Part shown: piece by piece, positions 4,730-15,091 of the stretch
Layout of the letters: each line of letters begins with the position of its first letter
How positions within the stretch are numbered: the first letter of the stretch is position 1
Assembly: GCA_022843485.1 (NCBI GenBank)
Contig: JALHNM010000001.1
Location: 558,001-622,000, forward strand
Direction: 5' to 3'
DNA: 64,000 nucleotides
Source of the DNA: Fimbriimonadaceae bacterium
GTDB taxonomy: Bacteria; Armatimonadota; Fimbriimonadia; Fimbriimonadales; Fimbriimonadaceae
The notes under the pieces: model-generated
What the model saw: only the letters and a program-made list of their open reading frames with translations
Database searches by the model: none
Told to the model about the DNA's origin: nothing
Position numbers and translations under genes: made by a program

Positions 4730-6208
4730 TCAGTCGAGCACGGCCTCGAAGGCGAAGGCTCGGAATTCGACTTGGGCCCGGGCTCGGGCGGTGGGGAGGG
4801 TGGGACGGACGGTGGCGCGGACCGAGACAGTGCCGTCGGGGGCGCGGTAGCGGGCGAGGTCCCCGGTAAGGACGAGCTCGACCTTGGTCCACTCCCGTCC
4901 GACCGGGGTGCGGGCGACGTCCACGGTGTCCCAATGGCCGGTGGTGAGGTCGCGGACCTCGAGGACGGCCTGGGCGGGGCCGCTCGCGCGGACCTCGCCG
5001 GTGAGCCAGAGGTAGTGGGGCGCCGAGTCGAGCCGGGCCGAGGCGACCACCGCCGCCCCCGCCCCCCGCTCTGGGCGCACCGACAGCCCCCCTGCCCCCG
5101 CGATCGTCGCCCCCGCCTCGACCACCAGCCCCGCCCCGACGCGGGTGGCCTTGGGCGTCGCGATCCAAGGGCGGGCCTTCCCGTCCCCAGGACGTAGCCC
5201 GTTGCCGACCAAGACTCCCTTGTCGGTCACCCTCACGATCTCGTAGAAAACCCATCCGAGAGCCTGTGCACCGAGGAGGTCGTTGATCAGCCGTTCTCTA
5301 TGGCGTTCGGTCCACAGCGCGATGATCTGATCGCTTGAGGTCGAGTTCCAGAGCTGGAGCGCGATATGCCCCAGCGAGTTAACGTCGGTCGCACCGCTCT
5401 CTGGCCACTTCACGGGATCGACGAGAAAGCGCCACCCTCCGGATTCGGTCCATGTCGCGGCTCGCGGCCCCATTGGCGGCCCCGTAGCCACGCCGACGAT
5501 CAAGCCTCGGTCGTTGATGTAAGTGAAGGCGGCCTCCCTGAATCCAGCCGGCCGTTCGACGACCAGAACCGAGCCTCCCTGGTAGGCAAACCCTCTTCTC
5601 GGGGAGAGGTCCATATCGCCGGTGACTCCCACGAAGTCCCCGTTGTCGTTGACTCCCAAGGCCAACCGAGACCATCCAGGGATAGCCGGGCCGAAGTTCT
5701 CGGCTCTTCCGTCTGGAACGAACCTCAACGGGTCTCCACCCCGGCCAAAGCTACCCGCGTAACCTGCTCCCCCTACAGCCCATCCAGACTCTGAGACGTC
5801 CTCGATATAGATCTTTGTCGATCCCGGAGGGCTTTGGAGTCGGAGATAGCCCGATTCGACGTCCCACCTGCACGCTCCCACCGGATTCGTCGCGAAGAGG
5901 CCGTGGAGGGTATCTCGACTGTCGATTCCAATCCAAGAAGCCTGTTGACCGTTGTCTAGGGGCACTCGAACAAACGACCCGCCGGCCCTCCTTGTGTAGT
6001 AGCCGTTAGATGCGACCAACAGAACGAGCCCGAGCGACTCGTTCGCCCCTCGGACGTACATGTCGTTGTCGGGTGCCCCAGGAGGCAGGGGCACCTCATG
6101 GAGCACGTACTGTTGCGCCGTCGCACCAGTCAAGACCCCGGCAGCCAAGAGGCTAAGCGAGAGCAGGCGACGGAGCCCTGGCGGGTAGGTGACGGCGCTC
6201 ACGTCCAT
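4730..6208 (-). CDS. Secreted HAF-repeat-like protein, type B, copy 1
   Basis: Predicted exported protein of 492 aa. The signal peptide ends ...TGATAQQ. The first ~330 residues contain recurring 'N..G..VG' units (for example LGVNDNGDFVG, INDRGLIVG, VTDKGVLVG), as in HAF-type extracellular repeats that probably fold as a propeller. The last ~130 residues look like a beta-sandwich (PHYLWLTGEV...). The ATG directly follows the TGA of the upstream paralogue (TGAATG), so translation is probably coupled. Homologous in layout to the gene at 13005-14441. Function unknown. Confidence 0.7.
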   Translation of the reverse strand: MDVSAVTYPPGLRRLLSLSLLAAGVLTGATAQQYVLHEVPLPPGAPDNDMYVRGANESLGLVLLVASNGYYTRRAGGSFVRVPLDNGQQASWIGIDSRDTLHGLFATNPVGACRWDVESGYLRLQSPPGSTKIYIEDVSESGWAVGGAGYAGSFGRGGDPLRFVPDGRAENFGPAIPGWSRLALGVNDNGDFVGVTGDMDLSPRRGFAYQGGSVLVVERPAGFREAAFTYINDRGLIVGVATGPPMGPRAATWTESGGWRFLVDPVKWPESGATDVNSLGHIALQLWNSTSSDQIIALWTERHRERLINDLLGAQALGWVFYEIVRVTDKGVLVGNGLRPGDGKARPWIATPKATRVGAGLVVEAGATIAGAGGLSVRPERGAGAAVVASARLDSAPHYLWLTGEVRASGPAQAVLEVRDLTTGHWDTVDVARTPVGREWTKVELVLTGDLARYRAPDGTVSVRATVRPTLPTARARAQVEFRAFAFEAVLD

Positions 6209-7724
6209 TCACCTCGTGTAGAAGTTCGCTTGCTCCACGTCGATCGACCACGTCGAGGACACCGGCCCCGTCGACTTGGCCGACAGGCGACCTCGCACCT
6301 TCCCCCCGGACACGAAACGCGCGAGCTCGCCCGGGGCTGCGCCCTCGAACGTCAGGTAGTGCCGTGCGACCCGCGACTCGGCAGGGGTCACCACCACCCA
6401 GGCCAACGCTTGGAAGTCCCAGAGCTCGAGACCCACGTCGAAGAGCCCGCTTGCGTCCACACGGACGGTCGAGCGAAACCAGAGCTCTTGTGGCGATCCC
6501 GAAACCAGGGCCTCGACCTCGACGAGCACGGGCGGGCCGGCCGGGACCAGCCCGGTTGCACGTCTGACGTTCGCCCAGGCCGCGTCAGGGAACCGAACGT
6601 CCGTGAAGTTCCCGAACTGGAGCGTCCCGTTCACGACCGAGAAGTCGCCAGCCACACTGGGCACCCTTCGAGTGAACGCCGAGGAACCGGTCGCGAAGAA
6701 GACCTCAAGTTGATCCGAGCTCGAACCCCCGAACCGCGGCGGTGTGGCTTCCGAGATGCCCGAGACCGCGAGGTTCGACGTGTCCGTGGCCGGTTCGCAG
6801 AAGGCTCTGAGGTCGATCGCCGCACCACCGTTCGGCTGGAACGCCCCGAGCCAGAGGTACGGGACCGGGCCGTTGCCTACGAAGGTCTCGCCGACGCGAT
6901 CGAACTGGGCCGGCCGACCGTACCGGGAATCGAGGAACGTGACCGAGGCATCGCCTAAGGTGTACACGAACGTCTGGCCCAGAAGCGACCCGCTCGGCTC
7001 CATCGCCCCAACGACCCTGTTGCCGCTGACCCCGATCACCGTGCCTTGCCTGCCGACCGCCCAACCAGGCAGGAACTGCGCCGTACCATAGACCGATCCG
7101 CTCGGCACCCAGTATGCGGGCACGATGGAGCCGCCAGACAGTACGGAACCACCGATAAGGGAGCTTTGGGTCCGACCGATTGCGGTGGCACGTGTCGATG
7201 TGTCGTCAGGAAGCAAGAAGTCGTAGGTCTGGGACCCAGGATCGACCCAGTACGCACGATCCAGGTTGTTCTCGCGGATAAATCCTACGACTCGGTTGTC
7301 CTCTGAGACTTGGGTCCCGGTACCCTGCCTAAGGTCGCTCGGGAAAAGGTGAGCAGGCACTCCATTGATCCACCGCAAGGGGCGCGTCGTTGTCGATCCT
7401 CCACCGTTGGCTGACCCCACGATTCGGCCAAAGGCGTTCCCGTGCTTTGAAACCCCCCTGTCCGCTCCTATTGGGGTGGCCATCTCACCCGGGGTGCCCA
7501 AGTCCGACCTCATCGGGAGAACCTCGATACTCGGCGTCCGAGAGATCGCCCCGAGAAGGTCGCCAATGGTTCCCATCTGGCCAGAAGTTACCGCGGCGAA
7601 AAAGCCGTCAACTCGGAACCGCTCGATCTTGTACAACGTCGTGGACTGGGCGAGGGCTTCCCCCCCCCCCGCAAACGGCGAGGGCGGCGAGGGCGAGCCG
7701 CAGGGTGGTCTTCGTGTGTTTCAT
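6209..7724 (-). CDS. Secreted HAF-repeat-like protein, type A, copy 1; frame broken at a G11 tract (possibly phase-variable)
   Basis: A perfect signal peptide starts at ATG 7724 (MKHTKTTLRLALAALAV) after GGAGCGAACAG. It enters a run of 11 G (minus strand; 7660-7670) that shifts the frame and gives a stop after about 39 codons. With 10 or 13 G the signal peptide continues through EALAQS, an ideal cleavage site, into the 476-residue frame that begins at TTG 7636. The full product would be about 504 aa: repeat-rich N-part (DNRVVGF, GNRVVGA) then a C-terminal beta domain (SPQELWFRSTVRV). It is either a sequencing error or a phase-OFF allele. Confidence 0.75.
7660..7670 (-). repeat. Homopolymeric tract G11 inside a signal-peptide coding region
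   Basis: Eleven consecutive C on the plus strand (G on the coding strand). Both flanks are in good coding frames that differ by one base, so length changes by slippage would switch the downstream protein on or off. Confidence 0.9.
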
Positions 7725-7833
7725 CTGTTCGCTCCGGGTCACACCAAGTGTGCCCATAGTTTACGACGCCGTCCTCTTCCAGCCCATCGCAGCGGGACGG
7801 GAAAAGTACGGTGATTTTTCCACATTCGTCGCA

Positions 7834-14441: not shown

Positions 14442-15091
14442 CGGCGGATCCAGGAGGCTTGGTCGACCTCCACGTGCCAGGAAAACGTGTCCGAGGATCC
14501 GAGCCTTGCTCGCACCCGTGAACGCACGTTGCCTTGAGATACGAACCTTGGCTCGTTGGGGAGCTTGGCATCGACGGTTCGGAACTCAGGCTTGAGCGAG
14601 AAACCCGTCACCGAGGAGTCCACCCAGGCTCCCGCCGTCCAGTCCCAGAACTGCACCGAAAGGAGGACGCCGGTCGCGTTGCTTCGGGCTGTCGTCCGGA
14701 ACCACAGGTCGTTCGCGCCGCTGGCGCCGGTGCCGTCGACGATGAGCCGGACGCGATGGACGGGGTCTGGGGAGATTTCCGCTCGGGTGACACGGCCCCA
14801 GACGGCGTCGGGGCGGCGATAGTCGTCGAGTTGCCCGTAGTTCTGGGTCCCAACCTCGAAGGTCACACCGCTGGGCTCCAGCCTGGTGTGGTCGGGGCTG
14901 GCCTGCGAGACCCACCATGCTCTCTGCGCCGTCTGCTGGTTGTACTGCCCTCCGAACTGCGGCGGCGACTGACCGAGGTCCACCGTGTTCAACCCGGTGA
15001 CGCTTGCGGCGACCAAGTCGGCACCGGGCTCCGCGAACGCTCGGAGATCGACCGACGCTCGCTGTGCTGATCTGTGCCGTGCTGTGATCAT
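14438..15091 (-). CDS. 5'-truncated type A HAF-like gene, copy 2 (remnant)
   Basis: Of 217 aa, starting MITARHRSAQRA with no signal peptide. From ASVDLRAFAEPGADL onward it aligns along its length with the second half of the 6209-7724 product (AAIDLRAFCEPATDT), including FGG..., YRRPDAVWGRV and the C-terminal LWFRTTAR domain. The roughly 300-residue repeat region and signal peptide present in that paralogue are absent, and nothing resembling them lies upstream. It still has a good promoter (15101-15129), so it may be expressed, but it should not be secreted. Best read as a decayed copy. Confidence 0.65.
   Translation of the reverse strand: MITARHRSAQRASVDLRAFAEPGADLVAASVTGLNTVDLGQSPPQFGGQYNQQTAQRAWWVSQASPDHTRLEPSGVTFEVGTQNYGQLDDYRRPDAVWGRVTRAEISPDPVHRVRLIVDGTGASGANDLWFRTTARSNATGVLLSVQFWDWTAGAWVDSSVTGFSLKPEFRTVDAKLPNEPRFVSQGNVRSRVRARLGSSDTFSWHVEVDQASWIRR

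Follow-up and report, generated by a model that had tools for sequence, protein, structure and literature searches.

A tract of 11 G in the signal peptide of a secreted-protein gene of a Fimbriimonadaceae bacterium is best explained, with a probability of about 0.75, by slipped-strand phase variation. The earlier note had suggested a switch of this kind, and comparison with relatives supports that reading: runs stand at the same site in other family members and are made of different bases, ON and OFF lengths both occur, and the downstream frames are open and constrained. In kind, the switch is probably a known one; the protein family and the lineage in which it occurs are new. A full-text literature search, covering open-licence texts only, that combined phase variation with Fimbriimonadaceae or Armatimonadetes found no paper, which leaves novelty unproven.

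In the proposed mechanism, replication slippage at the G11 run would add or remove one base. With 10 or 13 G the signal peptide would be in frame and the protein exported; with 11 or 12 G the gene would be out of frame and yield only a peptide of 38–45 residues. Since most family members carry such a tract, each cell may display a different subset of surface or secreted proteins. We consider that the window protein is presumably surface-located and that tract length would govern its export; slippage may be expected in the living population, and the switch may well benefit the cell.

The tract and its reading frames

The window analysed is a stretch of 64,000 nucleotides (C1:558001-622000 of genome G000; 2.96 Mb in 20 contigs). 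The gene lies on the minus strand, in the order ATG 7724, MKHTKTTLRLALAALAVC, 11 G at 7670-7660 and then AAGCCCTCGCCCAGTCC, as the earlier note had placed it. Codons 1–18 of the signal peptide (MKHTKTTLRLALAALAVC) occupy 7671-7724, so that 54 nt separate the ATG from the start of the tract (7660-7670), and a Shine-Dalgarno-like GGAG, read from the sequence, lies 7 nt upstream of the ATG (7732-7735). If the tract holds 10 or 13 G, the signal peptide ends in ..EALA (7649-7659), with cleavage predicted before QSTTLYK; the AQ at the predicted site is conserved in alignment A1. The frame of the mature secreted protein (6209-7648) is open and, at G11, out of frame with ATG 7724.

By frame arithmetic, the assembled length gives a product of 38 aa, and 10 or 13 G give 504–505 aa reading MKHTKTTLRLALAALAVCGGGEALA/QSTTLYKIER (here and below a slash marks the predicted cleavage site). 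The earlier claim that the EALA/QS site is completed only at these two lengths thus holds, and the early stop, put there at about 39 codons, was recomputed as 38. The downstream frame contains no alternative ATG, GTG or TTG before TTG 7636, which is itself past the cleavage site.

Long runs as such are not exceptional in the window. G/C runs in the window number 180, 46 and 6 at lengths 5, 6 and 7, with one each at 9 and 11, and a dinucleotide shuffle of the window gave more 8-mers than observed; long G runs per se are therefore not enriched there. The whole genome has 22 runs of at least 9, of which 12 are 10–15 long, a tail heavier than the fall-off with length would predict; taken alone, this is weak evidence. 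What is far from chance is where the runs lie, in signal peptides of a single protein family. Three of the 12 runs of at least 10 in G000 lie inside signal peptides, all three in this family (the window gene, L044 and L046), and any one stretch of 200 nt has a probability of about 0.0015 of containing a run of at least 9. Signal peptides were detected by a rough method, which gave positives at 76 of 1658 short control runs and served for screening only.

Recurrence and frame states in the family

The window protein has full-length homologues in relatives at 22–34% identity. Searches of Pfam, NCBIfam and PDB sequences returned no match for it, nor did NCBIfam for the members of alignment A1, and homology to PilC/PilY1 was accordingly not found. 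The HAF repeat proteins (TIGR02913, NCBIfam) do not match the window gene; two window paralogues score 18.1 and 16.4 bits against this model, under the cut-off of 22.65. Structure prediction using the window paralogues alone reached a mean pLDDT of 35 and was set aside. Judged by these comparisons, the protein belongs to a new unnamed family and is not a PilC relative. The family is secreted and present in four genera of Fimbriimonadaceae (g1, g8, g16, g25); an N-terminal profile (A2) run against 113 genomes of the order found 14 strong members and 4 more below E 1e-20. A 5′-truncated member also lies in the window (14444-15061), with the C-terminal ~205 residues left and an MsrB-like gene directly upstream.

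The comparison of related genomes proposed in the earlier note was made on one assembly per species, counting as a tract any G or C run of 9–13 in or adjoining the signal peptide. Such tracts occur in 13 of the 18 members (five are without) but in none of the 33 secreted proteins taken as controls (Fisher p = 2e-8, the members being kin and not independent draws). The controls come from the same genomes and have only the C-terminal domain in common with the family; otherwise they are distinct proteins, each with a signal peptide of its own, and not one of them shows a G/C run as long as 7 close to its start.

In the orthologues in G001 and G008, as in the window, the tract (G12, C9 and G11, respectively) stands just before the cleavage site and the same kind of tandem paralogue follows. 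The G001 orthologue has G12 in MKTTLTRSLFALSLFA-GGG-AAFA/QD and is OFF. The G008 orthologue (CP075364.1, Fimbriimonadaceae bacterium isolate ACE_ARM1), also OFF, has C9 in MTRTKILTLIFVLVT-PPP-VTA/QS and starts at TTG with AGGAG upstream; G008 and CP075364.1 agree in coordinates and in C9 and are thus probably a single record. Further members carry C11 (MTRIT-PPP-RLILCAIVVV..) and G13 (MKSTRALIVCATALL-GGGG-VRAQ) in G000; G9 in two copies (L105/L106; MHKTKTLCVLLSILT-GGG-VQA/QS) and in L144 in G001; G9 in MKQTAILRAFTLAIVAVSSL-GG-ASA/QE and in MGRKKNRIVWLAFVGLT-GGG-YA/QV in G008; C9 immediately after MKRTIKKRTLVASLAVLVASQAVA/QS in G083; and G12 in two members in G025 (MRTNIRRAALGLALSSIC-GGG-VALA/ND), the second copy having AAG for ATG. 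The exact position varies from the n-region to just before or just after the cleavage site. As both base and exact position differ among members, the tracts appear to have arisen several times at one functional place.

Taking the best start codon of each member, the start codons being themselves assigned by inference, eight members are OFF (window 11, L044 11, L090 12, L144 9, L104 9, L194 9, L138 9, L141 12) and two are ON (L046 13, L201 9). Two identical copies at G9 (L105/L106) depend on the start chosen: the inner ATG, with the better Shine-Dalgarno sequence, is OFF and the outer ATG is ON. One member (L140) has lost its start codon. The OFF share is near two thirds, the expectation for free phase. 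Two features of a translational phase-variable gene are thus found, namely a long simple repeat in or near the 5′ coding region (G11 after codon 18), and lengths that decide whether the gene is in frame, the frame beyond the tract being intact. The OFF frames stay open over ~470–580 codons; only L090 (G001, G12) has an early stop, a TAG in the downstream frame, and this copy may be decaying. Between the OFF member L144 and its tract-free paralogue L145, dS is 0.44 and dN 0.076 (499 codons), giving w = 0.17, or ~0.34 in the worst case, with all replacement changes placed on L144 and synonymous change split evenly.

Alternative explanations and known systems

One alternative is an error of the consensus or of sequencing: the tract would really be 10 G long and the gene constitutively in frame, with an ordinary Gly-Gly-Gly in its signal peptide. 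Exact tract lengths in assemblies may be off by one, homopolymer length is often misassembled, the G000 assembly is in 20 contigs, and several relatives are one base from ON. However, whatever the exact length, a long run exists and recurs at the site, made of G or of C, and the 33 control signal peptides have none. The deviations run both ways across separate genomes (9 for an ON length of 10, 11 for 10, 12 for 11); OFF lengths are both shorter and longer than the ON length, on which ground a systematic +1 assembly artefact was rejected and any systematic error in length is unlikely. We regard the error explanation as improbable. A decaying gene family, in which the frameshifts would be pseudogenising events and the runs functionless mutational hot spots, would account for the OFF majority, for the TAG in L090, for the lost ATG of L140 and for the truncated member at 14444-15061. 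Yet seven of eight OFF frames lack a stop over 500 or more codons, the w of L144/L145 points to constraint, and decay does not predict the return of tracts, in G or in C, to a single functional site, so that decay, too, appears unlikely.

Runs of at least 9 G or C can in principle make polymerase or ribosome slip. Programmed frameshifting or transcriptional slippage could, whatever the tract length, yield full-length protein in a fixed low share, with no switching of the DNA, and most assembled alleles are OFF, yet their frames are kept, as this explanation would have it. Against it, base, position and start spacing vary among members, and no conserved sequence was noticed alongside the runs; we give it very little credence. 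Slipped-strand phase variation remains the preferred reading. Counted against phase variation itself are the five members that lack a tract and the identical G9 of L105/L106, two copies identical over 1.1 kb that display no variation.

The closest known likeness is pilC of Neisseria gonorrhoeae, which frameshifts in homoguanine tracts of its signal peptide region turn ON and OFF (PMC5354566). Both cases involve an exported protein with a homoguanine run among the codons of its signal peptide, and expression that depends on frame, here predicted from sequence. The protein and the phylum are unrelated, however, a whole paralogous family bears the device here, with C instead of G in some members, and switching, known for pilC, is here a prediction. 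The gonococcal opa genes, in which CTCTT repeats in the leader vary expression (PMC5354566), resemble the Fimbriimonadaceae family as paralogues that each have a leader-coding repeat giving independent ON and OFF states; they differ in having pentanucleotide repeats instead of mononucleotide runs, and the proteins are unrelated. Orsi et al. (2010) argued that homopolymers at the 5′ end, for the most part A/T, serve prokaryotes as a general means of gene inactivation, with the poly-A of inlA as a case (PMC2831843). Runs near the 5′ gene end inactivate by frameshift in that work as they would here, but poly-A and poly-T are over-represented there, in contrast to G/C runs of 9–13 at one protein site in a high-GC genome.

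Tandem paralogue, shared blocks and wider distribution

The window gene is followed by a tandem paralogue of 492 aa on the same strand (4730-6208), with its own signal peptide and no tract. Its ATG at 6208 comes immediately after the TGA at 6211-6209, and the earlier statement that it begins at the stop codon is thereby confirmed. Gene and paralogue abut in G000, overlap by 4 nt (GTGA) in G001 and lie ~11 nt apart in G008, spacings which suggest that the paralogue may be co-expressed. That it might co-switch through translational coupling, as the earlier note had also considered, is our guess from this arrangement.

Two pairs of members share blocks that include the tract. In G025, L140 (C15:99762-99773) and L141 (C15:57699-57710) are paralogues 42 kb apart that are nearly identical in a block of ~110 bp (-80 to +35 around the tract) comprising start codon, signal peptide, G12 and cleavage site. 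The flanks are unrelated on both sides and one copy has AAG for ATG, as if a switch module had been copied between genes. In G001, L105 and L106, 92 kb apart, share an identical stretch of ~1.1 kb that runs from -200 to +900 and includes the tract, beyond which they are unrelated; by its sequence pattern this would be a recent gene conversion or duplication, in which one N-terminal part is joined to different C-terminal parts.

Tracts are also seen beyond the family. L231 (G025:C10:104695-104707), a secreted gene not among the family search matches, has G13 in its signal peptide (MRPLTTLARAAAVLASVCA-GGG-AMAATG); it is OFF and would be ON at 11 or 14. L095 and L096 (G001) are weaker, possible cases. 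On these sequences we put forward, tentatively and with more doubt than confidence, that the secretome of Fimbriimonadaceae may be phase-variable by means of a portable switch in signal peptides. At five further loci (L039, L042, L094, L100, L102), G/C runs of 10–16 stand just upstream of genes whose products begin with a signal peptide, and some of the runs are close to -35- and -10-like boxes (L100: TTGACA-20 nt-TAACTT); these are possible promoter-spacing switches.

Most known switches based on repeats in signal peptides come from pathogens adapted to a host, and immune escape explains them there. If the phase-variation reading is true, a conserved and repeatedly evolved set in uncultured Fimbriimonadaceae would mean that the same device pays outside pathogens, with phage, predators and biofilm neighbours as candidate pressures, and mixed tract lengths are predicted in existing metagenomic reads.

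Long G runs in Fimbriimonadaceae were considered as general marks of signal peptides and rejected as such, since the runs in G003, G012 and G027 gave ~6 weak matches in 39. Many long G runs in these three genomes lie outside signal peptides, which indicates that such runs arise for other reasons too. Absent mismatch repair was likewise rejected as their cause, mutS1 being found in five of five genomes checked. Very long G runs occur at or near contig ends (L047, L097, G003:C42, G005:C5, G023:C126), a location pointing to breaks or padding introduced by assemblers. A G11 run in L043 (G000:C5:230163-230173) lies between CRISPR-repeat-like sequences (GGTTCATCCCCACGG..) and a gene. Elsewhere in the window, 547-1395 encodes a putative PEP-CTERM protein ending in VPEPATMLALGAGLAAVAARRRRK.
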